IMG/VR virus record: IMGVR_UViG_3300048625_000152
Coordinates: 124,001 to 188,000 of that record
Reading direction: 5' to 3' (one strand)
DNA: 64,000 nt
Source of the DNA: a virus
The notes below the pieces were generated by a model. The model did no database searches. It saw nothing but the letters and a program-made list of their open reading frames with translations, and was not told the origin of the DNA. How positions within the stretch are numbered: the first letter of the stretch is position 1; every line of letters begins with the position of its first letter. The position numbers and the translations under genes were made by a program. Shown piece by piece: positions 2,654 through 23,811 of this stretch.

Positions 2654-3010
2654 ATGAAATTCTTTCAAGAAACTACTGACTACAAAGACAAGATTTCAAA
2701 CGGCATCTACTTGCTGTCAGATGACAAGACTCGTATGTTTGCCTATGTTGCCCCGGGTAACAGCACTGCAAAAGAATTCAAACGCCCAATTCGTATCGAC
2801 ACTCGCGGTCGCAGCTTCAAGCCAGTTACCAACACCTTTAACTATGTGATCCCTGCAGAAGTTGCACCAACGGTCCCACAGTGGATTGTTAAGGGCAGCA
2901 AGGGCGATGAGTACATTGTTCGTAAAGATGGCTTGATGTATTCATGCACATGCAGTGGATTCAAATTCCGCGGTAGCTGCAAGCACGTCACGGAGATCAA
3001 AGGCGCATGA
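2654..3010 (+). CDS. SWIM zinc-finger protein
   Basis: 118 residues from ATG 2654. Near the C-terminus (residues about 97-112) is YSCTCSGFKFRGSCKHV, which fits the SWIM pattern C-x-C-x(n)-C-x-H; such fingers bind DNA or protein. The stop overlaps the start of the first LRW gene (ATGA), so the two are translationally coupled. It may be a regulator of the array that follows, but only position suggests this. Confidence 0.8.
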   Translation: MKFFQETTDYKDKISNGIYLLSDDKTRMFAYVAPGNSTAKEFKRPIRIDTRGRSFKPVTNTFNYVIPAEVAPTVPQWIVKGSKGDEYIVRKDGLMYSCTCSGFKFRGSCKHVTEIKGA

Positions 3011-3216
3011 TTAAACGTCAGTATCATTACTATGGTGGCCGCAACGGTGATGCCTACTTCTGCAACTTTGTTGATGCAGCTGGTGGGCAAGAACACATTC
3101 GTACAGAACTAACTAAGTGGAAGGCAACTGTTGCCAAAAGCAAAGCCAAGTACACTTATAATGTCAAGTTTCACGACGAGCAGTTATACATATTTTTTAG
3201 GATCAAGTACTCATGA
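3007..3216 (+). CDS. LRW-family small protein 1
   Basis: 69 residues, first member of array 1. The ending DEQLYIFFRIKYS is a divergent form of the family signature E-x-D-x-x-x-F-x-L-R-W. It overlaps its neighbours by ATGA on both sides. Function unknown. Confidence 0.75.
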   Translation: MIKRQYHYYGGRNGDAYFCNFVDAAGGQEHIRTELTKWKATVAKSKAKYTYNVKFHDEQLYIFFRIKYS

Positions 3217-3443
3217 ACTGGCGGTTCTGGCGTAAGCAATATCGAGTGGCTGTGACAGAAAATGATTACAATGTTAAAATTGTAAAGCACATGACTGCTA
3301 CTGGAAAAATTCAAATGCAGTTTTTCGACTTTGTCAAACAAGAGTTTAATGCCGAGCGTGAGTGGAGTTGGCGTACTAGAGAGAATTTTCTAGTGTTCAA
3401 CAACGAACGAGATTATGTAATGTTTTTACTGAGAATGTCATGA
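3213..3443 (+). CDS. LRW-family small protein 2
   Basis: 76 residues ending NERDYVMFLLRMS. The basic N-terminus (MNWRFWRKQYR) is unlike its neighbours. The stop overlaps the next start; the junction reads CTGAGAATGTCATGA. Confidence 0.75.
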   Translation: MNWRFWRKQYRVAVTENDYNVKIVKHMTATGKIQMQFFDFVKQEFNAEREWSWRTRENFLVFNNERDYVMFLLRMS

Positions 3444-3661
3444 TTGAGCTAGACATCGACTCTGAAACTGGCACTGGACGCAAGCATTGGTGGGAAAACT
3501 TTCGCGACTATGCCGAAACACAAGGGTACGATTTCAATGAGGCCGACTCTATCACGCAGGCACTATCCGAATGGAACGCCATTGATAAAGATCCAGAGAC
3601 TACCAAGTTCTACTTTGAGAATGAGCACGACTATTTGTTGTTTATGTTGAGATTTTCATGA
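3440..3661 (+). CDS. LRW-family small protein 3
   Basis: 73 residues ending NEHDYLLFMLRFS. Acidic N-terminus (MIELDIDSETG). The ATGA overlap with the next gene is preceded by TTGAGATTTTC. Confidence 0.75.
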   Translation: MIELDIDSETGTGRKHWWENFRDYAETQGYDFNEADSITQALSEWNAIDKDPETTKFYFENEHDYLLFMLRFS

Positions 3662-3942
3662 TAGTAAAAGACACACTGCAAATTGATTCAATCTACGGCA
3701 CTCTTCGCCTGCGCCTGCGTGAGTTTGTTGCAGAGACTCCTTGCCTGTACACCAATGACGCAGATGCCGTTAATATTGTGTGTCACTGTTTCTCCTGCTG
3801 GCAGTTTAATGGTGCCGCACCGTTTGAAGAAGTTATGCTGTGGTGTGAAGAACATTTTGGGCGTGACTGGATCTGGAGATTTGAAACAATCTTCTTCAAG
3901 TACGAGCGTGATCGTGCAGTATTCTTGTTGAGGTGGGCATGA
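3658..3942 (+). CDS. LRW-family small protein 4
   Basis: 94 residues. Near the N-terminus LQIDSIYGTL lines up with MQLNSVYGTN of the member at 6122 and looks like a decayed form of the polymerase B motif. The middle has the family's second signature (LWCEEHFG) and the end is YERDRAVFLLRWA. The junction TTGAGGTGGGCATGA supplies the next gene's ribosome binding site. Confidence 0.78.
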   Translation: MIVKDTLQIDSIYGTLRLRLREFVAETPCLYTNDADAVNIVCHCFSCWQFNGAAPFEEVMLWCEEHFGRDWIWRFETIFFKYERDRAVFLLRWA

Positions 3943-4151
3943 CTAAAATCTATGCAGACATCTATCCCTACTTCAAGAAGGTTGCTAACCACTATTGGGA
4001 TGATCTATACAAGTCTAATATTAGTGTCTGGGATTGGCTTGGCCGTGAGTACGGTATTAGCCACACTTTTGGCAGTGCAGCCAGCCAGCAGATAGTGGTG
4101 TCATTTCCCGATGAGAAAACACTCAATTGGTTTATACTGAGGTGGTCATGA
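3939..4151 (+). CDS. LRW-family small protein 5
   Basis: 70 residues from ATG 3939 (ATGA overlap; an in-frame GTG 6 bases earlier is unlikely). IYPYFKKVANHYWDD and VWDWL make it a close paralogue of the gene at 4617. Ends DEKTLNWFILRWS, with codons ending CTGAGGTGGTCATGA. Confidence 0.8.
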   Translation: MTKIYADIYPYFKKVANHYWDDLYKSNISVWDWLGREYGISHTFGSAASQQIVVSFPDEKTLNWFILRWS

Positions 4152-4372
4152 GTACAACTCTTTACATATCCGACGATTACGACCAAAGCCCAATGGCATA
4201 CAAAAACTTCTATAGAGCAGTGATAGAACCTGAGATGATGAAGACCCGCCGTGCTCCCCTCTCGGGAGAAGAGTTTCTCAGAGACTACAATGCACACTGG
4301 AATAACGAAACCAAGTGCATTGTGTTTAGCACTGAACAAGATTTAACTTACTTTGTGTTGAGGTGGTCATGA
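4148..4372 (+). CDS. LRW-family small protein 6
   Basis: 74 residues from the overlapping ATG 4148. Ends TEQDLTYFVLRWS encoded as TTGAGGTGGTCATGA, so GAGG lies five bases before the next ATG. The N-terminal two thirds match nothing I recognise. Confidence 0.8.
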   Translation: MSTTLYISDDYDQSPMAYKNFYRAVIEPEMMKTRRAPLSGEEFLRDYNAHWNNETKCIVFSTEQDLTYFVLRWS

Positions 4373-4620
4373 TTGTAAAAGAGTATTACCAAAACATCAA
4401 CTGTAAACAACCCAGGAATTACTTCGAGCGTTGGTATGCAGATGTATGGGCACGCCGTATTACTAAAAAGTCCGCACCTCCGGCATTGGTGGACCATATC
4501 CTTGAAGAAGAAATTGCTCAAGTCGGTGCTTGTATTGAAGGTAAAGACAGTGGGTATAGATTTGTAGTGACCTTCAAAGACGAGCACGACTATACCATGT
4601 TTGTGTTGAGGTGGTCATGA
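4369..4620 (+). CDS. LRW-family small protein 7
   Basis: 83 residues with a basic middle (VWARRITKKSAPP). Ends DEHDYTMFVLRWS, the best match to the family consensus. Both junctions are ATGA overlaps with an embedded GAGGTGG. Confidence 0.8.
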   Translation: MIVKEYYQNINCKQPRNYFERWYADVWARRITKKSAPPALVDHILEEEIAQVGACIEGKDSGYRFVVTFKDEHDYTMFVLRWS

Positions 4621-4847
4621 AACTACGCAAAGACATTCGCCCATACTTTCAGAAGATTGCCAATTACTACTGGGACAACATTGGTCGTGACATACACAAC
4701 AACGACGGGCATCACATAACTATTTGGGATTGGCTCAAGCAAGACTACAATGTTGTTAAGGTTGGACCAGTTGGTCGCAAACCCGAGTTGTGGGTATCGT
4801 TTCCTGACGAACAACACATGACAATGTTTATGTTGAGGTGGTCATGA
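4617..4847 (+). CDS. LRW-family small protein 8
   Basis: 76 residues. IRPYFQKIANYYWDN and TIWDWLKQDY repeat the pattern of the gene at 3939, so the two arose by duplication. Ends DEQHMTMFMLRWS with the TTGAGGTGGTCATGA junction. Confidence 0.8.
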   Translation: MKLRKDIRPYFQKIANYYWDNIGRDIHNNDGHHITIWDWLKQDYNVVKVGPVGRKPELWVSFPDEQHMTMFMLRWS

Positions 4848-5044
4848 AGCAAGAGCTAACTATGCTAATGGATTGCGACTACACATACATTCCATTATCT
4901 GAAAACCAAAAAACCATTGGTTGGATAGAGGCATTGCTTTGGTGCGAAGAGTTTGATGGAATCGGACATTTTAGCATGGGAGGACATGGCGTTTACTTCG
5001 AAAATGAAAAAGATGCTATAATGTTTGCATTGATCCATAAATGA
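4844..5044 (+). CDS. LRW-family small protein 9
   Basis: 66 residues. It has the second signature in the form LLWCEEFDGIG and a divergent end NEKDAIMFALIHK. The stop overlaps the next start, but the junction has no GAGG; the next gene must rely on termination-reinitiation. Confidence 0.72.
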   Translation: MKQELTMLMDCDYTYIPLSENQKTIGWIEALLWCEEFDGIGHFSMGGHGVYFENEKDAIMFALIHK

Positions 5045-5322
5045 AAAAGCAATATACAAGAGACTCCCTTATGAAAAAGGCACGTATTGAATCCGACCAG
5101 CTAAACACTATCTTCCAGAAGTGGGCTGCAAACAATGGGTATAAGACCTCGGGACATTGGATTGACCACTTTGATCGACTTAACTTACGTTATGGTGCTG
5201 GTCAAGCGTTTGATCATTATGTTTGGTCATGTGGTGGCCGCATTTATACAGAATACAGCAAGCGTTATGCAGACTTCTTCGAAGAAGAAAATCTAATTAT
5301 GTTTACATTAAGGCACTTATGA
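5041..5322 (+). CDS. LRW-family small protein 10
   Basis: 93 residues, basic N-terminus, ending EEENLIMFTLRHL. A second in-frame ATG lies 30 bases inside and cannot be excluded as the start. Overlaps the next gene. Confidence 0.72.
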   Translation: MKKQYTRDSLMKKARIESDQLNTIFQKWAANNGYKTSGHWIDHFDRLNLRYGAGQAFDHYVWSCGGRIYTEYSKRYADFFEEENLIMFTLRHL

Positions 5323-5486
5323 TGGCGAAATGGGCAATAGTAACAATTGATGATTACACCAGCGGGGCAGAATGGTGCCATGCCAATCTCGACTATAATG
5401 ATTGGGTGTGCAGTTCTGATGGCTGTGGCTGGGACTTTCGTTTTCGTGACCCGTTAAAAGCCACAGAGTTTGCGCTGAGGTTTTGA
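5319..5486 (+). CDS. LRW-family small protein 11
   Basis: 55 residues from the overlapping ATG 5319; one of the shortest members. Carries AEWCHANL and ends DPLKATEFALRF. The junction GCTGAGGTTTTGATGA again places GAGG before the next ATG. Confidence 0.7.
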   Translation: MMAKWAIVTIDDYTSGAEWCHANLDYNDWVCSSDGCGWDFRFRDPLKATEFALRF

Positions 5487-5731
5487 TGATACGATTGGAT
5501 CTTGTTAAAGACTATGCACCTATCCCTGTGTGGAACAAATTTGTTGCACACCTGCAAGAACAAGTGGGACCACAGGCAGTAACCGACGCTTATGTTAATG
5601 CAGCACTGGTTGAGTACCGTGCAGTGTACTACATGGAAGAGGTGGGCAACTTATTTGAAAGTAGTGTTCTGCACTGGATCGAGTTTGAAGACGAAGAATT
5701 GTACTCTTGGTTTATGTTGAGGTGGTCATGA
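5486..5731 (+). CDS. LRW-family small protein 12
   Basis: 81 residues from ATG 5486, whose A is the last base of the previous stop; an overlapping TTG is less likely. Ends DEELYSWFMLRWS with the canonical TTGAGGTGGTCATGA junction. Confidence 0.78.
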   Translation: MIRLDLVKDYAPIPVWNKFVAHLQEQVGPQAVTDAYVNAALVEYRAVYYMEEVGNLFESSVLHWIEFEDEELYSWFMLRWS

Positions 5732-5922
5732 TTGAAATTAAAATCAGCAAGAAACTTCGTGATGTATACGGGGAAAGTGGTACACAGGTCGCGTGGAAGT
5801 GGTGCTTGGATAACTTTGGACCACCGGAACCTAATGGCAAGCGTCGGGCATGGGACACTATCCGAACATTTTGGTTTCATAAAGAAGAAGATGCTACACT
5901 GTTTGCATTGAGGTGGCTATGA
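5728..5922 (+). CDS. LRW-family small protein 13
   Basis: 64 residues showing both family signatures clearly: AWKWCLDNFGPP in the middle and KEEDATLFALRWL at the end. Junction TTGAGGTGGCTATGA. Confidence 0.8.
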   Translation: MIEIKISKKLRDVYGESGTQVAWKWCLDNFGPPEPNGKRRAWDTIRTFWFHKEEDATLFALRWL

Positions 5923-6125
5923 CATTAAGTGAACCAATGACCGAAGTCAGACTCTATGGATGGCACCATGAACGCACTGAGGCTAGAGTTAAGTGGTGCG
6001 AAAAAAATATTGGCGAGTATGGAGGTGAGTGGTTTTATGTGTGGGAAACCGGTGAAGGTGAATGGTCTGACTGGTATTTTTCTGATGAAAAATATGCTAC
6101 CATGTTTGCATTGAGGTTTGCATGA
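5919..6125 (+). CDS. LRW-family small protein 14
   Basis: 68 residues with VKWCEKNIGEYG and the ending DEKYATMFALRFA. Junction TTGAGGTTTGCATGA. Function unknown. Confidence 0.8.
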   Translation: MTLSEPMTEVRLYGWHHERTEARVKWCEKNIGEYGGEWFYVWETGEGEWSDWYFSDEKYATMFALRFA

Positions 6126-6412
6126 CTAAAGAAGAATGGGCAAAATTGCATCGCAAGATGCAACTAAACAGCGTCTACGGCACAAACCTCTGTAAGGAAA
6201 TAATGGCACCAAAGGATCAAGCACTAACTGCAATTCAAAACGCATGGAGCCAGTGGCCTGAGATTAAAGATACAGTCACAGACTTTGGTTTTGGGGAATG
6301 GTGTAAACATGTGCATGGGTTTGAGTATCGCTATCACAATAGTGGACAGAGGGTTATCACCACAGTGCTCGACGAGCAAAAGTATGCTTGGTTCTTACTA
6401 AAGTGGGCATGA
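6122..6412 (+). CDS. LRW-family protein with a polymerase motif-B-like N-terminus
   Basis: 96 residues. Residues about 12-20 (KMQLNSVYG) fit exactly the K-x3-N-S-x-Y-G motif B of family B DNA polymerases, but nothing else of a polymerase is present. The rest is LRW-type: GEWCKHVHG and DEQKYAWFLLKWA. Catalysis is not possible with this fragment; mimicry or chance are the alternatives. Confidence 0.78.
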   Translation: MTKEEWAKLHRKMQLNSVYGTNLCKEIMAPKDQALTAIQNAWSQWPEIKDTVTDFGFGEWCKHVHGFEYRYHNSGQRVITTVLDEQKYAWFLLKWA

Positions 6413-6413
6413 C

Positions 6414-6593
6414 ATGTTAACGTACCGTATGATTGACTGGGTCAACATTCAGCAACGCATGATTGAAAGCGGGCTCAGTGATATTCCCAATGGGCATTTT
6501 CATGACAGCTACCGTAAAGACGATTACTTGTACTTTATGGTTGAGTTTGACACGCCCGAGGATGAAATGATGTTTGTTTTAAAATGGAGTTAG
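6414..6593 (+). CDS. LRW-family small protein 16, amber stop
   Basis: 59 residues from ATG 6414, just after the previous TGA; ends PEDEMMFVLKWS then TAG. It closes array 1. With amber suppression the protein would gain 20 residues before a TGA. The next gene starts one base after the stop. Confidence 0.75.
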   Translation: MLTYRMIDWVNIQQRMIESGLSDIPNGHFHDSYRKDDYLYFMVEFDTPEDEMMFVLKWS

Positions 6594-15294: not shown

Positions 15295-15499
15295 GTGGCG
15301 CAAGATCCGAGCTCAGATTAAAATTGAGTACGCAGACAAGCCTAGTGTTTGGCTCTTGCGATCTGTAATGAAGCGTGAGTTAGGATTCACCGACCGCCAT
15401 CATCAGGTTTACCGAGAACAAACAGGTTACATCACTACTGTCTACTTAGACTTCTTCAATGACGCAGCAGAAACAATGTTTAGATTGAAGTACTTATAA
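15272..15499 (+). CDS. LRW-like small protein
   Basis: 75 residues. MITLTDTEWRKIRAQIKIEY and LLRSVMKRELGF form two helices, then YLDFFNDAAETMFRLKYL, a divergent LRW ending. Overlaps the upstream gene by 23 bases. Confidence 0.7.
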   Translation: MITLTDTEWRKIRAQIKIEYADKPSVWLLRSVMKRELGFTDRHHQVYREQTGYITTVYLDFFNDAAETMFRLKYL

Positions 15500-15715
15500 T
15501 TGGAATTCCTTGCTCGTATCCTTCCCAAGTTAATTGCTGGTGTCCTAAGCATTATGGATGCCAGTCGCTTGCGGGATAAGGTATACCAGCAACAACACGA
15601 ACACGAGTTGATGTGGACTGCACTAGATGATATCGCACGTATGCACCCAGATCATCCGTCAGGAAAAATAGCAAAGAAAACACTAGATGAAGTTACTACA
15701 CGCTACGGTAGGTAG
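15500..15715 (+). CDS. Small helical protein, amber stop
   Basis: 71 residues from TTG 15500, directly after the previous stop; ATG 15554 is an alternative. No LRW signature. Ends in TAG; suppression would add ten residues. Unknown function. Confidence 0.5.
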   Translation: MEFLARILPKLIAGVLSIMDASRLRDKVYQQQHEHELMWTALDDIARMHPDHPSGKIAKKTLDEVTTRYGR

Positions 15716-16103
15716 GTTTCAAGCATGGCGACATGCCCGTTACCTTAAGAAGAAGGGATGGACTCAGCGCCAGTTTGATCTCATAAATGATCCTGATTTT
15801 TGCGCACGTGGTGGTAGTATTCGTAAGGACGTGTATCGTGGCTACCCTTACCTCGTCCCGTTTGACGACACAGTGCCACTGGAACGGCGGCATGGCCAAG
15901 GATGGATCACCGTAGTTGATAACATGACCACGTGGTGCGCAGCAAATGCCACCGGTAAATGGAGAGAAGATATCCTCCCAGTTGACAAGAGTTGGGATGG
16001 CGAATGGACGCAAGGGTGCATGGGTCTAAGCCACAACATTCTATTTTTTGCATTTAACAATGAGCAAGATGCTGTAATGTTTAGTCTATACTGGAGTGTG
16101 TAA
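15687..16103 (+). CDS. LRW-family protein with long N-terminus
   Basis: 138 residues. A basic N-terminal domain (RHARYLKKKGWTQRQFD) precedes a typical LRW part (TTWCAANATG, then NNEQDAVMFSLYWSV). Overlaps the upstream gene by 29 bases and the next by one. Confidence 0.72.
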   Translation: MKLLHATVGRFQAWRHARYLKKKGWTQRQFDLINDPDFCARGGSIRKDVYRGYPYLVPFDDTVPLERRHGQGWITVVDNMTTWCAANATGKWREDILPVDKSWDGEWTQGCMGLSHNILFFAFNNEQDAVMFSLYWSV

Positions 16104-16321
16104 TGAATATTAAATTCAAACATCGCCCGGACCGATACTACGAGTGGGAAATGTACTACAGTCCACAAGGTCCAGAGATGAGCGAAATATACGGATGGTG
16201 CTGGACCACATTCGGTCACCCGGGACTAGCATTAGGTAATGGCACTTGGGATAGCCATGGTGGATGGATTAAATTTCGCAGGGAAGAAGATGCTACAATG
16301 TTTGTGTTGAGGTGGAGCTAA
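16103..16321 (+). CDS. LRW-family small protein
   Basis: 72 residues with IYGWCWTTFGHPG and REEDATMFVLRWS. The junction TTGAGGTGGAGCTAATGG keeps GAGG upstream of the next ATG, which overlaps the TAA. Confidence 0.8.
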   Translation: MNIKFKHRPDRYYEWEMYYSPQGPEMSEIYGWCWTTFGHPGLALGNGTWDSHGGWIKFRREEDATMFVLRWS

Positions 16322-16584
16322 TGGAATTATTTTACGGCGGTGGCGGGAATCAGTACCCCGACTTTAGATATAAGGTGCGTATTAAAAAGAACTCGCCTGA
16401 AGTCAATGCTATGATGAAGTGGTGCGACGACTATCCAACAGGCGATAAGGGCTATTTCAAACGCTACTACATTGATTGGCGTGGAGGCACAAAAACTTGG
16501 GATAGTGAATACACTACATTTCAATTTGAATGGGAACAAGCTGCTATTATGTTTGCTCTGAGTTTTGCGGATAGTGTATGTTAA
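16321..16584 (+). CDS. LRW-family small protein
   Basis: 87 residues from ATG 16321. Basic, with MMKWCDDYPTG and a divergent end WEQAAIMFALSFADSVC. Overlaps the next gene by seven bases. Confidence 0.72.
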   Translation: MELFYGGGGNQYPDFRYKVRIKKNSPEVNAMMKWCDDYPTGDKGYFKRYYIDWRGGTKTWDSEYTTFQFEWEQAAIMFALSFADSVC

Positions 16585-16859
16585 CTATAGTAAGAATTTG
16601 GGTGTTGGATCACAATGTTATCCCCGACCAGTCTGATGTAGACTACTGCAAAAACAATGGCATACAACTAGACGCCCAGCAAGGTGAGCATCAGCGTATT
16701 GAAACCAGCGGGCAGGTCTATCACTACCGCAGCTCGCCCGGGGTTATAAAACTAACCACATTTGACGATAAAGGTGAATGTATGTTACAATTACGGTACG
16801 CAGGTAGAATCCATCTACTACAACAAATCTATACTGAGTCGGTAACACATTCGTATTAA
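16578..16859 (+). CDS. LRW-like small protein
   Basis: 93 residues; the motif is DKGECMLQLRYAG and is followed by an extra 17-residue tail. DVDYCKNNGI may be the second signature. Divergent member. Confidence 0.62.
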   Translation: MLTIVRIWVLDHNVIPDQSDVDYCKNNGIQLDAQQGEHQRIETSGQVYHYRSSPGVIKLTTFDDKGECMLQLRYAGRIHLLQQIYTESVTHSY

Positions 16860-17188
16860 TGAAAGTTCGTCTTAAAAATGGCCGAATCGGAGAACATCGC
16901 CTTAAGTGGGACAAGAACCCAACAGGCATTGCGCCATTGCTAATAGGATCGGAGACTGTGGAGTTGGACATAACTGAACGAATTTACAACGGGCCTGACT
17001 GCTACCCATGGCGCAAGACGTTTGCACTTTGGCCAGTTAAAACAATAGGTGGTAATCGCATTTGGTTACGCACTGTTTACAAACAACGATTCTGGGCAGT
17101 GTGGGGCAAAGGCTTTCACATGGAACCCTGGGTTGAATATGCAACACTATTCGAGATTTTAAAACATGAATCTAAATCATCTATCTGA
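16859..17188 (+). CDS. Basic small protein, unknown
   Basis: 109 residues, start overlapping the previous TAA. Strongly basic and aromatic; the near-terminal VEYATLFEILK recalls the LRW ending but is not convincing. Overlaps the next gene by 23 bases. Confidence 0.62.
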   Translation: MKVRLKNGRIGEHRLKWDKNPTGIAPLLIGSETVELDITERIYNGPDCYPWRKTFALWPVKTIGGNRIWLRTVYKQRFWAVWGKGFHMEPWVEYATLFEILKHESKSSI

Positions 17189-17642
17189 CGTAGAGCTGCT
17201 ACGCTACTTGGATTTGACTAGCACTGATCCATTGGTCAAACGATTAATCAACATGCTGTCTGCACCTAACGGTGGGCTTGTTGGTGATTTAGTCGAAGCA
17301 GGCATGGATCCTAACACATGGGTCTTTACAGACGATCACCAAGACTACTACCCCGGAGATTACATCACCCACTTGCAAAAGATGGTTGCCTACGCAGAAG
17401 ATGACCGTGCGGTAGCCGAAATGGATTTAGCGGATGCTCGTGAAGAACTTGATAAGTTAAGTCGACGCACCGTTACAGAACTTCTAGTAGATGCGCAGCG
17501 GGCAATTGACTCTGCAAAATCCAATCACCTTTACGCAGTTAGAGAAGCTGAAAAAGCTCACGAAGTAATTGACAAGGTACAAGCAGAGAATAGACATCTC
17601 AAAGAGCAATTGGGTATGTGGAATATTTTGGGAACTGAATGA
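17166..17642 (+). CDS. Coiled-coil protein
   Basis: 158 residues: a globular start (LSDVELLRYLDLTSTDP), then a long coiled coil from about residue 75 to 150. Not LRW-type. Sits within the array without its own promoter. Confidence 0.7.
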   Translation: MNLNHLSDVELLRYLDLTSTDPLVKRLINMLSAPNGGLVGDLVEAGMDPNTWVFTDDHQDYYPGDYITHLQKMVAYAEDDRAVAEMDLADAREELDKLSRRTVTELLVDAQRAIDSAKSNHLYAVREAEKAHEVIDKVQAENRHLKEQLGMWNILGTE

Positions 17643-17643
17643 T

Positions 17644-17913
17644 ATGGACAATATTATCCACCGCGGCGAGAATTTCCGATTAATCAAATGGCGCCATCGC
17701 AAAAGCGACAAGGTGCATTATCGTGTCGAGATGACATATGATTACTGGATGGACCGAGAACGACCTGCAGGGGAGAAAAGTTTCCCCGAGCAAGTTCGCG
17801 ATGTGATTGACCCAACTCGCTGCCGCAGCGGGCAAGCTGGCACACACTGGAAATACCGTAACTTAGAAGAAGCTACAAAAGCCTATACATTTTTAGTAAT
17901 GAAATTCACATGA
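17644..17913 (+). CDS. LRW-like small protein
   Basis: 89 residues from ATG 17644, two bases after the previous stop. Basic; ends LEEATKAYTFLVMKFT, a divergent form. Overlaps the next ATG. Confidence 0.65.
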   Translation: MDNIIHRGENFRLIKWRHRKSDKVHYRVEMTYDYWMDRERPAGEKSFPEQVRDVIDPTRCRSGQAGTHWKYRNLEEATKAYTFLVMKFT

Positions 17914-18191
17914 GTTATAAACTTAAACTAGCACACAAGCATCACGATCAATTAGATCAAATCGAAGCATGGCTCAACGCTAACGTTGGCCCTGGTAGCA
18001 AGCGACATGCAAACAATACATGGCTGGGCGCCGAAGATTGGTACTGCTATGAAGAAGTACTAGTTCCAGGCAGCGACGAAGAGGAAGAAGAGTACTACGA
18101 CAACGATGACAATCTTGAAGATATCTCAGATTTGATCTTTGTATTCCGCCGCGAAAGCGATCTGTTAATGTTTAGTTTGAAATGGGCATAG
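17910..18191 (+). CDS. LRW-family protein with acidic insert, amber stop
   Basis: 93 residues: IEAWLNANVGPG, then a very acidic stretch (DEEEEEYYDNDDN), then RESDLLMFSLKWA and TAG. Amber suppression would add two residues before TAA. Confidence 0.75.
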   Translation: MSYKLKLAHKHHDQLDQIEAWLNANVGPGSKRHANNTWLGAEDWYCYEEVLVPGSDEEEEEYYDNDDNLEDISDLIFVFRRESDLLMFSLKWA

Positions 18192-18192: not shown

Positions 18193-18549
18193 ATGTCTAA
18201 TCCTTTTAAACTCACAGATCTTCCTAACAACACTTGGTTAGTGACATGGGCTGAGAATAACTTTGCACATAATGCTAGACAGCGAGACAAGTTAGTTGAT
18301 CTTCTGTTCCGAGACATTGGATGCCGTGAAGTTGGCCTGGGCATTACGCTAAACAATGGCGAACTAGAAACACTGTGGATTAGCGAAAAAAATTATTTTC
18401 AACGGTCTGATATGACATACGGATGGGAAGACATGTATGTGGTTGGGGGAGTTGTGTTTTTTCACAAACACGAAGCTAGAGCATTTTATGACTTATTAGA
18501 AAGTCGCTTGGCTTGGTACTATTTAAGGCAAGGTGCAGCAGTTGCTTGA
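18193..18549 (+). CDS. Small protein, unknown
   Basis: 118 residues from ATG 18193, just after the amber stop. Aromatic-rich; no LRW ending (it ends RQGAAVA). Function unknown. Confidence 0.65.
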   Translation: MSNPFKLTDLPNNTWLVTWAENNFAHNARQRDKLVDLLFRDIGCREVGLGITLNNGELETLWISEKNYFQRSDMTYGWEDMYVVGGVVFFHKHEARAFYDLLESRLAWYYLRQGAAVA

Positions 18550-18760
18550 AATTCCATACCCAACCTTAATGAATGGCAGTCGCACGTTCTCTATGGAAAC
18601 TCTACAAAAGTGGCTTGACGCACACTTTCCTCAAGAACGTTCCTGCATCGTCCGTGTTGCTATTGTTAACAAAGGGCCCGGCAGATATGGCGACGAACGA
18701 TGGGCGATTCGTTTTTATCGGGATGAAGATGCAACACTGTTTGGATTGTTATGGCAGTAA
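18533..18760 (+). CDS. LRW-family small protein
   Basis: 75 residues from GTG 18533 (AAGG four bases upstream); ATG 18569 is possible. LQKWLDAHFPQE and RDEDATLFGLLWQ mark the family. Overlaps both neighbours. Confidence 0.7.
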   Translation: MQQLLEIPYPTLMNGSRTFSMETLQKWLDAHFPQERSCIVRVAIVNKGPGRYGDERWAIRFYRDEDATLFGLLWQ

Positions 18761-19008
18761 CTTATAAAACTAATCCGTTATTCCCAGGTGTTAATTTTCC
18801 CGTGTTGCACCGTGTTGTCTATGCACACACCATTGATGGTGTCCCAGCACAATGGCAAATCAGCTACAAGGATTATATAGTCAATGAATGGCTTAAAGCA
18901 AACACACGCCATCCTTACTACCACAGTCCCGGGTATCTTCGTGAAAAGTTCATTGAGTTTGAATGTGATGAAGAAGCAGTGCTATTCGCACTAAAGTGGG
19001 CAAAGTAA
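18751..19008 (+). CDS. LRW-family small protein
   Basis: 85 residues from ATG 18751, built from the last A of a Leu codon and the Trp codon of the previous gene. VNEWLKANTRHPY and DEEAVLFALKWAK. Confidence 0.75.
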   Translation: MAVTYKTNPLFPGVNFPVLHRVVYAHTIDGVPAQWQISYKDYIVNEWLKANTRHPYYHSPGYLREKFIEFECDEEAVLFALKWAK

Positions 19009-19238
19009 TGTATAGCGAGACTCACCGATTTTTTAAATTCAAACACGTTCCCAAGGACTTTATATGGGGCAGTGAGGAAATTGACCTGTGCCGCCTGCAC
19101 ATTAGTGACAACCGTATCACGATGCCGCTTGTGGACCGCGAATGGTTTAGTGCGCCCGATGGTGTATGGATTCGACACGATTGCCTGAATAACGAAATCA
19201 TAACTTGGTTTGCACTGAAAGCAAGCAATGAAGTTTGA
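19008..19238 (+). CDS. LRW-like small protein
   Basis: 76 residues from ATG 19008, overlapping the previous TAA. Ends NNEIITWFALKASNEV, where the Trp of the motif is lost. Divergent member. Confidence 0.68.
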   Translation: MYSETHRFFKFKHVPKDFIWGSEEIDLCRLHISDNRITMPLVDREWFSAPDGVWIRHDCLNNEIITWFALKASNEV

Positions 19239-19488
19239 ATTGTTAGAAGGGCGCATACACGGAGCTCGCTACTACACGGTTAGACCAGACTTTGATTGGT
19301 GGATTCCTAGTAGCTTAAATGACACAAATACCAATTGGCGCAATATGTTAGCATGGTGTGTAGAAACCTTTGGTGCCAGTGCAGAAATGGGTGTATGGGA
19401 ACCCGGTGCTCGTTGGTATGCTAACAATGCAAAGTTTTGGTTTCGTAATGATGAAGATAGGGTAGCGTTTTTGCTGAGATGGTCATGA
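19228..19488 (+). CDS. LRW-family small protein
   Basis: 86 residues with MLAWCVETFGAS and NDEDRVAFLLRWS. The junction CTGAGATGGTCATGA uses AGA for Arg. Confidence 0.8.
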   Translation: MKFELLEGRIHGARYYTVRPDFDWWIPSSLNDTNTNWRNMLAWCVETFGASAEMGVWEPGARWYANNAKFWFRNDEDRVAFLLRWS

Positions 19489-19718
19489 AAACAGACCTAG
19501 TCCAATTTTACTGCGAACGAGATCCCTACTACGCTAAATCACGTGAGTACTACATGATGAACGTAAATCATTACGAAACTCCTTATTACCTTTGGATGAT
19601 ACAGGAATATCGCACCGTGCTGTTAAACAAACAGGGTAGCTGGAGCGACAGGGCTGAACAGCATTGGGGCTTTATTAATGAATCGGATAGAACAATTTTT
19701 ATGTTGAGATGGTCATGA
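19485..19718 (+). CDS. LRW-family small protein
   Basis: 77 residues, tyrosine-rich N-terminus, ending NESDRTIFMLRWS. Junction TTGAGATGGTCATGA. Confidence 0.8.
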   Translation: MKTDLVQFYCERDPYYAKSREYYMMNVNHYETPYYLWMIQEYRTVLLNKQGSWSDRAEQHWGFINESDRTIFMLRWS

Positions 19719-19945
19719 CAACTACTGTTGAATTTGGTAAAGATCGTTATCACTTACAGGGTGAAATGGAAGAATGGTGCGAGCACAATATTGGGTCTAA
19801 TCCTCGTTATAGCAACCACGTTTGGTCCAAGCCAGTTGAGTGGGAAGGGTTAGGCACATGGTGCATGGCTAGTGCGTTTGGCACAACATTTTTCTACTTT
19901 AAACATCGCAAAGATGCAACCTTCTTTGCATTGAAATGGAAATAA
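19715..19945 (+). CDS. LRW-family small protein
   Basis: 76 residues with MEEWCEHNIGSNP and HRKDATFFALKWK. The next gene starts one base after the TAA. Confidence 0.8.
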   Translation: MTTTVEFGKDRYHLQGEMEEWCEHNIGSNPRYSNHVWSKPVEWEGLGTWCMASAFGTTFFYFKHRKDATFFALKWK

Positions 19946-19946
19946 T

Positions 19947-20309
19947 ATGGATGATCGGAATCTCTGGAACAGGCTATGCGATTGGGTAAAATTTGGTAAG
20001 TTTATAGAATGGAAAGAATGGTTTTACTGGACCATTGTGCCTGGCACTAGCATTGGGGTCATTTGGCCCAATGGCCCAATTTCTCTGGGTTGTGATCCTG
20101 ATGGCGAAGAGGTAATCGTCGACTCCGCTGATCCAAACGATCACTATCGCCCATGGTTAGAAGAGCATGTTGGGCGTCAGGGCATTGATTGGGAATGGAG
20201 AATGGGAACTTTTGGATTTTGGACAGATGAAATAGATACTCTGGATATTAAGTTTCGGGTAGGAAAGACAAAGTATGCTACAATAGCAGCATTGATGTGG
20301 GCCCAATGA
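19947..20309 (+). CDS. LRW-like protein, long form
   Basis: 120 residues, tryptophan-rich N-terminal half (WKEWFYWTIVPG), ending KYATIAALMWAQ, a divergent form. Overlaps the next ATG. Confidence 0.68.
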   Translation: MDDRNLWNRLCDWVKFGKFIEWKEWFYWTIVPGTSIGVIWPNGPISLGCDPDGEEVIVDSADPNDHYRPWLEEHVGRQGIDWEWRMGTFGFWTDEIDTLDIKFRVGKTKYATIAALMWAQ

Positions 20310-20509
20310 GAACCAAAACTACAAGAGAACTATATCCGTACCATGTGCGCTTTAAGCGTACAGGAGATTGGTATACTCCCGGCGGTACTTGGTATCAAAT
20401 TAGTAACTGGCTACGTGAGCACTACGGGCAGAATTGGGAATATCTTGACAGTATGTTTATGTTCTCTAAGGAAGAACATAAGATGCTTTTTATAATGAGA
20501 TGGCTATGA
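20306..20509 (+). CDS. LRW-family small protein
   Basis: 67 residues from ATG 20306. ISNWLREHYGQNW and KEEHKMLFIMRWL. Junction ATGAGATGGCTATGA. Confidence 0.78.
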   Translation: MRTKTTRELYPYHVRFKRTGDWYTPGGTWYQISNWLREHYGQNWEYLDSMFMFSKEEHKMLFIMRWL

Positions 20510-20925
20510 CAAAACGCAACACCGTAGTACTGGATATTGAAACAATGGAAGCAGTAATGCCGCGCGGGTCTTCATCTGTTTTTCAAAACATCTCAGGTGG
20601 AATACATCCTGATGAAATGATGATTTTTGCCGGAGGTAGACAAACTGGCAAGTCCACAATGACTTACCAAATGCTAAAGAGCAGATACTACGAGATGGGT
20701 ATTAAGGAGCAAATCCAGAAGTTAGATACGTTTGCTCTAGCTGGTGCTACATGGTACACTGTGCATTGTCGTCCTTCAACTATTAGCGGGTGGGTGCAAG
20801 AGCAAGACCCCGATATGTGGTGCCGTCACTACAACACAGGCGCACTGCGATTTGGTCACCCCACGTTCAACAACTACAATATACACGAAGAACTGTATTC
20901 AATGCTGTTACTAAAATGGTCATGA
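20506..20925 (+). CDS. LRW-family protein with P-loop N-terminus
   Basis: 139 residues from ATG 20506. The start has VVLDIETM, like an exonuclease Exo I motif, then MMIFAGGRQTGKSTMTYQM, a complete Walker A (G-x4-G-K-S). No Walker B or other ATPase motifs follow; the rest is LRW-like with HEELYSMLLLKWS at the end. It looks like a fragment of a phage ATPase joined to an LRW module. Nucleotide binding is possible, hydrolysis doubtful. Confidence 0.75.
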   Translation: MTKRNTVVLDIETMEAVMPRGSSSVFQNISGGIHPDEMMIFAGGRQTGKSTMTYQMLKSRYYEMGIKEQIQKLDTFALAGATWYTVHCRPSTISGWVQEQDPDMWCRHYNTGALRFGHPTFNNYNIHEELYSMLLLKWS

Positions 20926-21260
20926 AACAAACTATTGCAGCAAAGACTCGTGCCATCAAAGTCAAATGGACCATTGAGAAGCCAGAGGACGACGAAGTAT
21001 GGCAAGAGGTTGGAGCAGCATTGCAAAAAGAGATCGATGACGAAATTGTCAACACTATCAAAAGGCAAAGACTTATGTTAGAAGGATGGGTCAAGGCACC
21101 GTTTACTAGCGACAAGTTTGCTACACCAGGCAACCACCAAATAGCAGAGGTTGTGAAATGGATACACCTGAACACTACAGCGCAATATCAAATATTTGGA
21201 CGCGAGTTCTGGTTTACAAGTAAGGAAGACTTAACTCTGTTTGTGTTGAGGTGGTCATGA
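20922..21260 (+). CDS. LRW-family protein
   Basis: 112 residues from the overlapping ATG 20922. Helical charged N-terminal half; VVKWIHLNT may be the second signature; ends KEDLTLFVLRWS. Junction TTGAGGTGGTCATGA. Confidence 0.78.
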   Translation: MKQTIAAKTRAIKVKWTIEKPEDDEVWQEVGAALQKEIDDEIVNTIKRQRLMLEGWVKAPFTSDKFATPGNHQIAEVVKWIHLNTTAQYQIFGREFWFTSKEDLTLFVLRWS

Positions 21261-21532
21261 CAGATACCGTTAAGTTAGAGTGGGATGATATTTGTCGCCA
21301 CGAGCATAGATGCGAGGGTGCATCTTGTAATAACTGGTTGTATCACACTGTGCCTAGCTATAGTGTATATGTCAAAGCATACAGATGGTTGCGAGAACGC
21401 GGGTGCAAACTTATAAGTGCCGAGCGTGAAGAAGAACTCGTTGCCGGTGACCAATGGAGATACACTGGCAGGTATACGTTCAAGTTCTTATGTGAGCAAG
21501 AGTATGCGTTGTTTGTACTAAGGTGGAGTTAA
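21257..21532 (+). CDS. LRW-family protein with cysteine cluster
   Basis: 91 residues. CRHEHRCEGASC near the start could bind a metal. AYRWLRERGCK, then CEQEYALFVLRWS. Confidence 0.76.
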   Translation: MTDTVKLEWDDICRHEHRCEGASCNNWLYHTVPSYSVYVKAYRWLRERGCKLISAEREEELVAGDQWRYTGRYTFKFLCEQEYALFVLRWS

Positions 21533-21777
21533 TGGATTTAGACCTTGTAAAAAAGATTGTAGTCAGACAGGCTAATAACGAATTTCTTAAAAAGCCTATC
21601 ATATTGCCGCCAGAAGCAAAGGTCGTCACTGGCCAAATCAAAGAAGATGCTTACTTGCATTTTCTAGAAACTGTGTGCGGTGTAGAGATACTGTTGTCAG
21701 GGTACCATAACAAGATAGTTGGGTACAATGTCATTGATGAAAAGAAGTTTGCTTGGTTTGTATTAAGGTGGTCATGA
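21532..21777 (+). CDS. LRW-family small protein
   Basis: 81 residues from ATG 21532, overlapping the TAA. The N-terminus (LVKKIVVRQANNEFLKKP) is not found in other members; ends DEKKFAWFVLRWS with junction TTAAGGTGGTCATGA. Confidence 0.78.
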   Translation: MDLDLVKKIVVRQANNEFLKKPIILPPEAKVVTGQIKEDAYLHFLETVCGVEILLSGYHNKIVGYNVIDEKKFAWFVLRWS

Positions 21778-22013
21778 AAGTTTATACTAAGAATACTCAG
21801 CGAACGATTTTAGAAATGTCTGAAATGTGGTATTGGATGACCAAGAACTTTGGGCCACCGGAAGTACATAATGGCAATCTTAAACGCTGGACTTATGGCA
21901 AGGATCACCCAGGGTTCATGGGCAGTGAAACCATTGACGGTACATTTGATATTGAATGGTTTGATTTCCGTGATAAAAAAGACGCTGAATGGTTTGTACT
22001 GAGGTGGTCATGA
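21774..22013 (+). CDS. LRW-family small protein
   Basis: 79 residues; MWYWMTKNFGPPEV and DKKDAEWFVLRWS. Junction CTGAGGTGGTCATGA. Confidence 0.8.
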   Translation: MKVYTKNTQRTILEMSEMWYWMTKNFGPPEVHNGNLKRWTYGKDHPGFMGSETIDGTFDIEWFDFRDKKDAEWFVLRWS

Positions 22014-22222
22014 GTCGGCATGAGAAATATTGGTGTACAATTCGAGTCACTGTACCATGGCGCAGTACTGGACAGTTTAGAGACCTGCGTATATGGTTGC
22101 TGGACAATATTTTAAATATGGACTACGATTATTACGGAGTGGATTTTGTTAACCCTGAAAATCGTATATACTACTTTGCACGAGAACAAGATGCTGCAAT
22201 GTTTGCACTGAGGTGGGCATGA
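22010..22222 (+). CDS. LRW-family small protein
   Basis: 70 residues; LRIWLLDNIL and REQDAAMFALRWA. Junction CTGAGGTGGGCATGA. Confidence 0.8.
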   Translation: MSRHEKYWCTIRVTVPWRSTGQFRDLRIWLLDNILNMDYDYYGVDFVNPENRIYYFAREQDAAMFALRWA

Positions 22223-22509
22223 TGGAAAGACCTAGATCTAATTCACAAGAGTGGATTCGGTCCAAGCATGACCCAAAACATGATATGGTACACGGCGATA
22301 GACTGTATTATGTTGAGCCAGGCTGCGAGTACGGGTTTAAAGAAGACGACGGCCATGTGTGGAGTCGGTTAAACTGTAGCTATTGGTTTGGTGACTGGAT
22401 TGAAGAAAACGGCGGAAAAGAACGCTGGAGAATATACGGCGGCAGGCACCGTGCTATCTACATTGTGCGTGAAGACCTGCTGGCGTTTATCAAGTTGAAA
22501 TGGCTATGA
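22219..22509 (+). CDS. LRW-family small protein
   Basis: 96 residues from ATG 22219 (a second ATG follows directly). GDWIEENGG and REDLLAFIKLKWL. The junction TTGAAATGGCTATGA lacks GAGG. Confidence 0.75.
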   Translation: MMERPRSNSQEWIRSKHDPKHDMVHGDRLYYVEPGCEYGFKEDDGHVWSRLNCSYWFGDWIEENGGKERWRIYGGRHRAIYIVREDLLAFIKLKWL

Positions 22510-22697
22510 AGCAATACGGCCTAGCTATTGAACATTGGGGGCATCCACGTAAGGCCACTATATGGCATTGGCTTGAGCAAAACTTTGGGCCCGAAGGCGA
22601 CCGGTGGGGTACAGTCTACAATTACGGACTGGATAATCTCTGGATGAATGAAGATGTTTACATTATGTATGAATTGAAATGGACGCAAAATGACTGA
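22506..22697 (+). CDS. LRW-family small protein
   Basis: 63 residues; IWHWLEQNFGPEG and NEDVYIMYELKWTQND, with a four-residue tail after the Trp. Overlaps the next gene by eight bases. Confidence 0.78.
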   Translation: MKQYGLAIEHWGHPRKATIWHWLEQNFGPEGDRWGTVYNYGLDNLWMNEDVYIMYELKWTQND

Positions 22698-23088
22698 TAA
22701 GAATATCAACGATCAAATGAAAATCTTGATCCCAATGATCCGTAAGGTCATGCCCACAATGATCGCAACTGACATCATTGGTGTGCAGCATATGGATATG
22801 GGAATCGAACTCGAAACCGGGGAGACTTACGTGGATGAAGCCGCTAGTCATGCAACCGAAAACAACATCGTGGAATGGTATTGGGCACGATTGCCCCTGT
22901 CTGCAGGAGCATTCTGGAACATCAAAGGAACCCAGGCGCATTACGAACAAGTTGATGCATGGTGTGAAGAAACATTCGGACCACGCTGCTCCAACGAGCA
23001 TCCTGAATTTATATGGGATAAAATTAACTACCGTTATTGCTTTAAACGAGCCGAAGATAGGACAGCATTCGTGCTGAAGTGGGGCTAA
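22690..23088 (+). CDS. LRW-family protein with capsid (gp23)-like N-terminus
   Basis: 132 residues. Residues about 12-36 (LIPMIRKVMPTMIATDIIG, then VQHM) match the conserved segment of T4-type major capsid proteins (MVRRxxPxLIAxDIxGVQPM), yet only this short piece is present. The remainder is standard LRW: VDAWCEETFGPR and RAEDRTAFVLKWG. Not a capsid protein; a chimera or mimic. Confidence 0.78.
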   Translation: MTDKNINDQMKILIPMIRKVMPTMIATDIIGVQHMDMGIELETGETYVDEAASHATENNIVEWYWARLPLSAGAFWNIKGTQAHYEQVDAWCEETFGPRCSNEHPEFIWDKINYRYCFKRAEDRTAFVLKWG

Positions 23089-23089
23089 T

Positions 23090-23302
23090 ATTTCACGCTA
23101 CGTACTACCAACACAGTCTGAGCAAACGGACGCATGGTTTAATGGTGGCCACCTAATTGTTCTGTCAGACATTATGTACTGGAGCGCACACTACCAAGAC
23201 TTGGCAGACTGGTGTAAAGAAACCGATTCCCAAGTGCAAGGAATGACAGTGGTAGTACCCAATGAAAAAGTATTAACTTTATTCTGCTTACGTTGGAGTT
23301 GA
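23090..23302 (+). CDS. LRW-family gene without a standard start codon
   Basis: An open frame encoding 70 residues with ADWCKETD and NEKVLTLFCLRWS, but the only codon at the expected start, one base after the previous stop, is ATT. The first ATG is 23174, which would leave 42 residues. Either AUU initiation or loss of the start codon. Its Arg codon is CGT, unlike the AGG of linked members; no gene overlaps its stop. Confidence 0.6.
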   Translation: MSRYVLPTQSEQTDAWFNGGHLIVLSDIMYWSAHYQDLADWCKETDSQVQGMTVVVPNEKVLTLFCLRWS

Positions 23303-23327
23303 CCTAAATTGGGTGTTATGCTATAAT
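23299..23327 (+). promoter_or_regulatory. Second leaderless-type promoter in array 2
   Basis: TTGACC, 17 bases, TATAAT. Expected start 23334; the next gene's ATG begins at 23333. The -35 overlaps the stop of the preceding frame. Confidence 0.82.
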
Positions 23328-23332
23328 ACAGC

Positions 23333-23548
23333 ATGGAAAAGAAGATCAAATGGCTACGCGAGGGTAAGCAGCTTCGTGCAACGATGCCCGTTGCTCCGCG
23401 GGGCTACGAATCTTTCCTGCGTGAAGAGGACATGGATCCCGTTCAAAAATGGTGTGATCAGGTTGGCTACGGGCGCCGCACGAGCTTTGACACGTTTAAG
23501 TTTAAAACACGGGCAGAGATAACTGCATTTCTACTAAAATGGGCGTGA
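23333..23548 (+). CDS. LRW-family small protein, leaderless start
   Basis: 71 residues, basic N-terminus, VQKWCDQVGYG and TRAEITAFLLKWA. First gene after its promoter, with no room for a ribosome binding site. Confidence 0.78.
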   Translation: MEKKIKWLREGKQLRATMPVAPRGYESFLREEDMDPVQKWCDQVGYGRRTSFDTFKFKTRAEITAFLLKWA

Positions 23549-23811
23549 TCGATAATGATATCAGCAGCATGTACCCAAGCTGTTTTGAAGGCCCACGAAG
23601 CAGAGCATTTTGGGCCCAAATTGATGAGGAACATCGCATGAGAGTACTAAACAAGAAGTATTGGCCGTACCACGTCAAAGCCGAGACCACAGATAAACAA
23701 GAGCGCTGGTGCTACGAGAATCTCAAAAGTAGCGAGTGGCGTAATGTCGGCAGTTACTTTGCATTCAAGCGAGAGCAAGATGCAATGATGTTTACACTAA
23801 AGTGGTCCTAA
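23539..23811 (+). CDS. LRW-family protein with polymerase motif-A-like N-terminus
   Basis: 90 residues from ATG 23539 (GTG 23545 is an alternative). The first residues contain DISSMYPS, an exact match to the D-x-x-S-[LM]-Y-P-S motif A of family B DNA polymerases, with no other polymerase sequence. QERWCYENL and REQDAMMFTLKWS follow. See the motif B-like member at 6122. Confidence 0.78.
   Translation: MGVIDNDISSMYPSCFEGPRSRAFWAQIDEEHRMRVLNKKYWPYHVKAETTDKQERWCYENLKSSEWRNVGSYFAFKREQDAMMFTLKWS

Follow-up and report, generated by a model that had tools for sequence, protein, structure and literature searches.

What are dozens of small tandem genes doing in a large viral genome, and do they belong together at all? 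The question is raised by IMG/VR record IMGVR_UViG_3300048625_000152, a viral record of 240,493 bases, of which bases 124001-188000 were analyzed here (64,000 nucleotides, hereafter the window). Two runs of small genes on the + strand, at 3007-6593 (array I) and 14849-23811 (array II), together occupy ~12.5 kb. A sequence-only reading of the window had described them as about 46 genes sharing a C-terminal signature, and had proposed proteins adapting to many changing partners, such as host defense proteins. The two arrays are present as described, and most of their genes form one family with a constant C-terminal domain; in a minority of members, the variable N-terminal part carries a segment resembling another phage protein, such as the major capsid protein gp23. 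The reading that we favor, held tentatively and at somewhat less than an even chance, is that the arrays may be recombining operons of accessory conflict proteins, some members of which would serve as decoys for factors that sense phage proteins.

A family with one C-terminal domain

The profile used to judge membership started from 39 window proteins, each represented by its final 22 residues up to the motif, and was then iterated over open reading frames (ORFs) from fetched loci. The resulting profile, covering the C-terminal ~65 residues, matches 35 of the 50 window genes tested at E<1e-3. The figure of 46 is therefore an over-count, because only these 35 match firmly. Nine genes are doubtful (2404, 3007, 5071, 15037, 15272, 19947, 20506, 22222 and 55345; E 0.19 to 23), and six genes inside array II are non-members (16578, 16859, 17166, 17644, 18193 and 19008; E>100). 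Among the outlying relatives proposed earlier, 2404 and 55345 are thus doubtful only, and 25760 has no profile match (E ~180). A profile built from 350 sequences of other contigs, with the window and loci L010, L011, L012 and L018 excluded, still matches 34 of the 50 window genes at the same threshold. Across all scanned sources, 703 of 13,534 ORFs match at E<1e-3, from 117 of 131 sources; equal sets of reversed and of shuffled ORFs (13,534 each) give 0 matches. These 703 ORFs comprise 678 distinct sequences, some contigs being near-duplicates; L001-L010 and L022-L031 were kept out of the ORF set as duplicates or fragments. That the members are unrelated is ruled out by these controls together with the profile built without this phage group.

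The domain consensus is a C-terminal EWCKENFG...FxFxxExDAxxFxLRW, and the profile consensus ends ...EILEWCKENFGPRWRYEGGYTFYFKDEKDATMFLLRW. The second motif noticed in the sequence-only reading, W-[CL]-x-x-[N]-[F]-G, corresponds to EWCKENFG, and the general description given there, of a constant C-terminal domain, a variable N-terminus and expansion, is confirmed. Duplicates can also be recognized, 3939 being a paralog of 4617. Family genes in the window encode 55-139 aa, except for the start-uncertain 23174.

The conserved domain spans ~45-65 residues and is perhaps a small alpha/beta unit of ferredoxin-like arrangement. AlphaFold2, given a 129-member alignment, predicts strand-helix-strand-helix (mean predicted local distance difference test score, pLDDT, 83; predicted template modeling score, pTM, 0.69); a first model from 16 sequences had pLDDT 74 and pTM 0.58. 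Look-alikes are weak for both: an ACT domain (5v0s, Z 4.6, root-mean-square deviation 2.7 over 51 residues), RRM, KH and Cas2 for the first model, and an elongation factor G domain (2xex, Z 4.5, deviation 2.4 over 54 residues) for the second. All Z scores in the comparison of the two models are <5, the level of a common arrangement, and none allows a family to be named.

The family consensus has 0 matches in Pfam, only matches at E>0.5 in a PDB sequence search, and one match in PHROGs, to phrog_23986 (105 positions, no function given; E 3.9e-4 over 32 residues). Identity with a known family was likewise sought and rejected in PHROGs and Pfam scans of 46 members and in PHROGs, Pfam and NCBIfam scans of 150 long members, drawn from 160 mutually dissimilar members with N-terminal parts of ≥55 residues (window gene 20506 replaced the last). 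In these scans, with 25 of 34 PHROGs listed for the long members, gp23 is the sole family matched by more than two members besides phrog_12830 ("major head protein", 5 of 150). The profile check of the C-terminal region proposed in the earlier reading thus finds related members and no family of known function.

A DNA ligase gene between the arrays served as an anchor for related loci. It is 100% identical in L010 (354 kb; left out of member counts as a duplicate), 98% in L011 (321 kb), 74% in L018 and 63% in L012, and members were found in the loci of L011 (23), L018 (15) and L012 (5); the scan of the other eight of 11 ligase loci, several of them short or distant, found none. A DNA pattern taken from the gene junctions led to at least 119 further viral stretches (L032-L150). 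Of the 119 listed, 113 contain one or more members, 102 two or more and 58 five or more; the pattern itself accounts for the first member in each, though not for the others. In 115 of 117 loci all members share a strand, and of 584 pairs of successive members on the same strand, 527 end ≤700 bases apart.

Whole-record searches with a profile designated A4 give 36 matches at E≤0.01 in the window's record (G000, 240,493 bases), 35 of them in the two arrays; 37 in its close relative G002, 36 within arrays; and 8 in G003, 5 within one small array. The weak match outside the arrays of G000 (record position 227429-227590; profile 18-56, E 3.8e-4) lacks the C-terminal end, as does one in G002 (289907-290068), and both are possibly a relative of the family domain. 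Nine named phages were searched as whole genomes. Two isolated phages are carriers, with 36 matches in Phosso (Sinorhizobium, 469 kb) and 4 in PA5oct (Pseudomonas); A4 gives one marginal match in 121Q (E 0.0063, in a 249-aa frame) and none in phage G, RaK2, XacN1, CBB, Mvi-JY20 or T4. The Microcystis phage Mvi-JY20, which a tblastn hint had suggested as a carrier, is accordingly dropped. The Phosso matches (PV764938.1) are scattered over many places of its genome rather than gathered in two arrays. Six IMG/VR records (G009-G014, 236-344 kb), chosen because they have members, give 1 to 17 matches each with a narrower profile. One stricter-pattern scan of bacterial genomes found a single contig, L151 (DLXM01000070.1; 6.4 kb, at least 14 family matches), which is binned as a Bacteroidetes metagenome-assembled genome and is probably phage DNA.

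Modules in the variable N-terminal parts

Clustering of the N-terminal parts of 698 members gives 279 groups, of which 184 are singletons. Because the window's record has no full gp23, the gp23 proteins of G002 and of G003 were used for comparison. When the N-terminal parts were compared with 230 ORFs of the phage group (≥100 aa, from the window and 155 kb of G002, without the array members), to which set the statements on sources are limited, gp23 was the sole target at E<1e-4 (8 members), and the reversed database gave 0 matches at E<1e-3. Two regions of gp23 recur: module A (residues ~57-105; 50-56% identical to the group's gp23) and module B (~155-224; 31-43%). Profiles of the two find 6 members for A and 19 for B after three rounds, with 0 reversed matches at E<0.01; three more gp23-like ORFs lie between array genes and are non-members by profile. 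Pfam Gp23 matches 9 of the 150 long members, at best at 1.6e-10, and 18 other Pfam families are listed with 1 of 150 apiece; phrog_138 matches 8 of 150. In whole-record searches with phrog_138, gp23 itself is full in G002 and G003 and cut in G001, and fragments lie in the arrays of G000, G001 and G002 and in array contig G008; a further fragment, in G006, belongs to an ORF without the tail of the family, and G001 has one weak match at another place. No full-length capsid protein is found among the gp23-module members, in which only short segments align.

By alignment, module A overlies the Gol segment of T4 gp23, which we take to be residues ~93-121: all six module A segments align within T4 residues 77-131 and cover 98-118. 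Module B corresponds to what is presumably the P-domain helix of the capsid protein. Gol is described as a 29-residue region of gp23 that binds domains II and III of EF-Tu and promotes cleavage of EF-Tu by the Lit protease; it is the most conserved region of gp23 among T4-related phages, and 100 amino acids of the first quarter of the protein interact more stably (PMC3014915). In a different capsid protein, the parts contacted by CapRel are the beta-sheet of the P-domain and the spine helix (PMC9712102).

Two further modules recall replication and nucleotide metabolism enzymes. A P-loop module occurs in four members and in window gene 20506, and its profile matches the group's DnaB-like helicase (E 2.2e-5; reversed best 3.6), itself identified by phrog_19 at 2.5e-68. 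An NLC[KQN]E[IS] module occurs in 6 members, two of them orthologs; its pattern is found in 7 of 678 members, once ahead of the probable start, versus 1 of 12,831 other ORFs, and the module weakly resembles the NLCTEI site of the G002 ribonucleotide reductase NrdA (Pfam at 3.7e-126). Only gp23, the DnaB-like helicase and, weakly, NrdA appear as sources among the 230 ORFs, and the members are thus not fragments drawn from the phage's genes in general. NDISSMYPS in 23539 might be read as PolB-like, but this too was dropped, [SM]YPS not being enriched (1 of 678 members; shuffles 0.46). Separately, members of L110, L123, L145, L087 and L068 share the exact string AGYTDDLGIIAD, and AGYTDD occurs in 0 of 12,831 other ORFs.

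Modules and bodies are recombined, with one module on different bodies and one body with different modules. A body marked by KYWPY carries module A in L018 and L106 and a different front in window gene 23539, the bodies being 44-47% identical (E 2e-13 to 5e-17). A second body, FSRAxW (alike at E 1e-13 to 2e-30), carries module A in L053 and L036, the P-loop plus NLC in L032 and L018, NLC alone in L088 and L049, and neither in L042 and L066.

Gene junctions, turnover and selection

The features of the arrays are as follows, all coordinates being those of the window.

2597..2625, +, sigma-70-type promoter match TTGACC-17-TATAAT (11/12 matches), upstream of array I
3007..3216, +, first gene of array I, doubtful member (E 0.19); ortholog in L011
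3213..3443, +, family member (profile match)
3440..3661, +, family member (profile match)
3658..3942, +, family member (profile match)
3939..4151, +, family member (profile match), paralog of 4617; no L011 ortholog listed
4148..4372, +, family member (profile match)
4369..4620, +, family member (profile match)
4600..4620, +, example junction: AGGTGG ribosome-binding site within Arg-Trp codons, ATGA overlap with the next start
4617..4847, +, family member (profile match)
4844..5044, +, family member (profile match)
5071..5322, +, doubtful member (E 1.8)
5319..5486, +, family member (profile match)
5486..5731, +, family member (profile match)
5728..5922, +, family member (profile match), 64 aa, the bare domain; structure predicted
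5919..6125, +, family member (profile match); no L011 ortholog listed
6122..6412, +, family member (profile match), N-terminal NLCKEI motif (NrdA-like, weak)
6414..6593, +, family member (profile match), last of array I
14829..14857, +, sigma-70-type promoter match TTGACG-17-TATAAT, directly upstream of array II
14864..15046, +, family member (profile match), first of array II
15037..15294, +, doubtful member (E 0.39)
15272..15499, +, doubtful member (E 2)
15687..16103, +, family member (profile match), long N-terminus
16103..16321, +, family member (profile match)
16321..16584, +, family member (profile match)
16578..17913, +, four interspersed non-members (16578, 16859, 17166, 17644; E>100)
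17910..18191, +, family member (profile match)
18193..18549, +, interspersed non-member (E 130)
18533..18760, +, family member (profile match)
18751..19008, +, family member (profile match)
19008..19238, +, interspersed non-member (E 480)
19228..19488, +, family member (profile match)
19485..19718, +, family member (profile match)
19715..19945, +, family member (profile match)
19947..20309, +, doubtful member (E 0.22)
20306..20509, +, family member (profile match)
20506..20925, +, array gene with N-terminal P-loop module GGRQTGKS (DnaB-like helicase) and tail LLLKWS; profile fails (E 23)
20922..21260, +, family member (profile match), N-terminal gp23 module B (G002 gp23 ~155-218)
21257..21532, +, family member (profile match)
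21532..21777, +, family member, weakest firm one (E 1.1e-4); no counterpart in the G002 stretch read
21774..22013, +, family member (profile match); no counterpart in the G002 stretch read
22010..22222, +, family member (profile match); no counterpart in the G002 stretch read
22222..22509, +, doubtful member (E 0.57)
22506..22697, +, family member (profile match)
22690..23088, +, family member, N-terminal gp23 module A (G002/G003 gp23 ~60-91; T4 gp23 98-118)
23174..23302, +, family member, start uncertain (strong profile match; frame open from 23078)
23299..23327, +, sigma-70-type promoter match TTGACC-17-TATAAT, preceding the last two genes
23333..23548, +, family member (profile match)
23539..23811, +, family member, last of array II; body common to the gp23-A members of L018 and L106

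In the 23078-23302 frame, no ATG, GTG or TTG lies near the upstream junction, and the start is either a rare one (ATT/ATA) or the far-inside one at 23174.

Members commonly overlap the following gene through ATGA (418 of 626 distinct members, 47 of 70 in ligase-anchored loci, 17 of 31 in the window). The Leu-Arg-Trp-Ser/Ala codons typically read TTG AGG TGG KCA TGA, in which AGGTGG is a Shine-Dalgarno sequence at a spacing that fits the ATG within the stop overlap; the window contains the junction pattern TTYNNNYTRAGGTGGKCATGA 10 times, and 100 shuffles contain it 0 times. For codon bias, the four ligase-anchored sources that contain members were used (the window, L011, L012 and L018), since the pattern that found L032-L150 itself contained the Leu-Arg-Trp codons. 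There, AGG encodes the Arg of the motif in 38 of 49 cases, versus 29 of 452 other Arg codons of the same ORFs (Fisher p 6e-29). The Leu-Arg-Trp part of the signature thus carries a second, nucleotide-level constraint, because its codons supply the ribosome-binding site of the next gene. Conservation of the tail is nevertheless more than this site, since the Trp 38 residues ahead of the final Trp is invariant in 129 aligned members, and genes without the ATGA overlap still end in [RK]-W (131 R and 46 K of 208).

Between positions 1 and 27000, the + strand has 9 sigma-70-type promoter matches of at least 11/12, where 0.37 would be expected, and the - strand has 0; the 9 stand, among other places, before array I (2597), array II (14829) and the last two genes (23299). 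No match of this quality lies inside 3007-6593 or 14864-23298, where weaker promoter-like and terminator-like sites are at chance level only. Because strong matches precede the arrays and none lies inside, the arrangement suggests long operons read by the host polymerase.

The composition of the arrays turns over by whole genes. Array I and L011 have 14 genes in common in the same order, L011 having 6 extra and lacking 2, and for array II, three window genes are missing from the stretch of G002 read, which has two that the window lacks. The differences are without exception whole genes, with overlaps intact at the two insertions whose junctions were examined, and gain and loss occur between phages with a 98% identical ligase. 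One array I gene of L011 resembles array II window gene 21257 (56%), as though it had passed from one array to the other. Gene by gene, the synonymous difference lies between 0.00 and 0.67 in the array region and between 0.17 and 0.43 in nine neighbors, a breadth that mosaic exchange would give. The pooled ratio of nonsynonymous to synonymous substitution (dN/dS) is 0.148 for 38 array-region genes, five of them non-members (16859, 17166, 17644, 18193 and 19008), versus 0.077 for the 9 neighbors. A value of 0.148 denotes purifying selection and hence functional proteins, evolving about twice as fast as their neighbors. In the four module-bearing window genes, pooled dN/dS is 0.34 for the module and 0.155 for the rest, so that the modules are constrained, but more loosely than the remainder of the same genes.

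What the array proteins may do

The variation in array size (5 array matches in G003, 35-36 in G000 and G002), the gene turnover and the faster evolution fit proteins facing changing partners, as the sequence-only reading had supposed, and the phage-like modules add to that case. Counter-defense, however, is not proven by layout, and part of the shared tail, Leu-Arg-Trp, is also kept as the ribosome-binding site of the next gene. If the arrays are conflict operons with decoys, host RNA polymerase would read them early, and coupled translation would yield dozens of small soluble proteins, each binding a different host (or rival) target via its own N-terminus, with the constant domain as a stable scaffold or common attachment. 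Module-bearing members would be decoys mimicking parts that the phage can hardly mutate (the Gol segment, the capsid helix region, the P-loop, the NrdA active-site loop) and would titrate factors recognizing those parts, an EF-Tu/Lit-type sensor of the Gol segment being the clearest candidate. The repeated junctions would allow cassettes to be swapped with translation unbroken. That the arrays form a shufflable decoy library, with self-mimic sites (capsid Gol segment, capsid helix region, helicase P-loop and ribonucleotide reductase active-site loop) set on one scaffold and produced from an operon, is a narrower proposal that we consider unlikely; if true, it would be a modular, repertoire-like counter-immunity soaking up bacterial immune sensors or rival phages' factors.

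Several points weigh against decoys. A gp23, P-loop or NLC module is present in 33 of 703 members, and the apparent bias towards functional sites may be a detection bias, because only very conserved motifs are recognizable at such distance. The module B count grew by iteration, from 5 matches in round one to 21 in round three, some in near-identical contigs, and its weakest matches are at E near 0.009 over ~25 residues; the NLC profile matches G002 NrdA at NLCTEI weakly (E 0.016; reversed best 3.4), and one N-terminal part matches a non-gp23 ORF at 4.7e-4. The faster evolution of the modules would not be predicted by strict mimicry. The residue range used for the Gol segment is a presumed one, it is likewise presumed that a jumbo-phage gp23 behaves like that of T4, and early expression we infer from the promoter consensus alone. 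The targets could just as well be proteins of the phage itself or of a rival, and mimicry could as easily be a means of interfering with other phages or of attaching to the capsid.

Such interference, in which capsid, helicase and ribonucleotide reductase fragments would be dominant-negative poisons of the assembly or replication of co-infecting relatives, seems to us improbable. The modules do derive from essential phage proteins and, having diverged from the group's gp23, could hurt relatives more than self, and gp23 modules are present in several contigs; yet most members have no such module, and module A of 22690 is 52-56% identical to its own group's gp23 and 58% over 31 aa to that of other jumbo phages, so that self-harm is not avoided by sequence, the two being about equally close. 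Attachment to the capsid, with gp23 segments tethering members that are delivered with the DNA in the manner of T4 internal proteins, is more doubtful again. The T4 internal proteins do combine a constant module with variable cargo, and two gp23 regions recur here, but the T4 capsid-targeting sequence is N-terminal where the constant part of the present family is C-terminal, and the majority of members have no gp23 segment.

Two other explanations dispense with conflict. Host-takeover regulators, with an RRM- or ACT-like C-terminal binder modulating host transcription, translation or metabolism and no defense role, are unlikely without being negligible: the predicted strand-helix-strand-helix, the weak resemblance to ACT, RRM, KH, Cas2 and ribosomal or translation-factor domains, and the host-type promoter matches agree with them, but all of these look-alikes are at Z <5, the level of a common arrangement, and the gp23 modules would go unexplained. 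It is improbable, to a slightly greater degree than interference, that the members are mostly neutral products of recombination, with junction repeats driving duplication and the shared end kept mainly as the next gene's ribosome-binding site. Cassette turnover and the AGG bias at the motif Arg would be expected of such products, as would the ratio of Arg to Lys at that position (39:7 with a following ATGA overlap versus 10:10 otherwise in the anchored sources, p 0.005), and Synechococcus phage S-PM2 in culture is reported to have lost a similar-looking region with a rise in fitness (PMC4503421). Purifying selection, conservation reaching ~38 residues upstream of the final Trp and the [RK]-W end kept without an overlap weigh against it.

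Comparison with known systems separates what is common in these arrays from what is not. Small orphan-gene arrays are already known from S-PM2, phage G and 121Q, and the layout is common although the family is not; the chimeric modules are the really new feature. The T4-type mobile regulatory cassettes called PeSLs and the T4 internal protein loci are modular, fast-changing accessory loci in which a repeated element favors shuffling. In the present family, what repeats is a coding junction, made up of stop, start and ribosome-binding site, and not a promoter stem-loop, no promoter match of at least 11/12 standing inside the arrays and weaker sites being at chance level; the constant module is C-terminal, unlike that of the internal protein loci. 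PeSLs are cited in PMC4503421, the paper on the S-PM2 "ORFanage". By its annotation and junctions the ORFanage has >30 small orphan genes in tandem, many of them overlapping by 4 nt, and the paper reports that its synteny is seldom conserved in metagenomes. That it belongs to the present family is not supported: 0 of 38 ORFanage genes match the profile at E<1e-3 (best 0.0055 in a 38-sequence search). The jumbo-phage arrays of G and 121Q are ascribed to tandem duplication (PMC5646251; cited again in a 2026 review of jumbo phages, PMC13282480), and a zinc-ribbon expansion is reported in phage G (PMC7824862). Their genes are described as very similar, whereas the present members are highly diverged, and profile A4 gives 0 matches in G and 1 marginal one in 121Q. 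The gp23 major capsid protein (PF07068, phrog_138) shares two segments of ~20-65 residues with array N-termini, but the members lack the rest of the capsid protein and have an unrelated end domain; six are homologous to the T4 Gol region, as a Gol-type peptide would be. No description of the array family or of capsid-fragment chimeras was found in the literature excerpts searched, and a search of two rhizobial jumbo-phage papers (PMC6102473, PMC11242549) for related terms turned up none of these arrays.

Small unexplained genes fill much of jumbo-phage genomes. Here one family with a definable domain takes in more than 30 such genes of a single phage and hundreds from other contigs; the logic of its operons and junctions is clear, and some of its variable parts have a visible origin. 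Should the gp23 modules act on sensing of the EF-Tu/Lit type, the arrays would be a modular counter-defense made from pieces of the virus's own proteins.

Other genes of the window bear on folding and on the host. A GroES-like chaperonin (Cpn10, E 1.6e-23) at 319-603 lies ~2.4 kb upstream of array I; T4 requires a GroES analogue for folding gp23, the protein whose segments recur in the arrays. At 49475-50434 the phage encodes a tripartite tricarboxylate transporter receptor (TctC, Pfam E 3.1e-18), of a type common in betaproteobacteria, which hints at the host. At 55544-58667, a DnaJ-like protein adjoins a ClpA/ClpB-like ATPase, forming a phage-encoded pair of chaperone and unfoldase.

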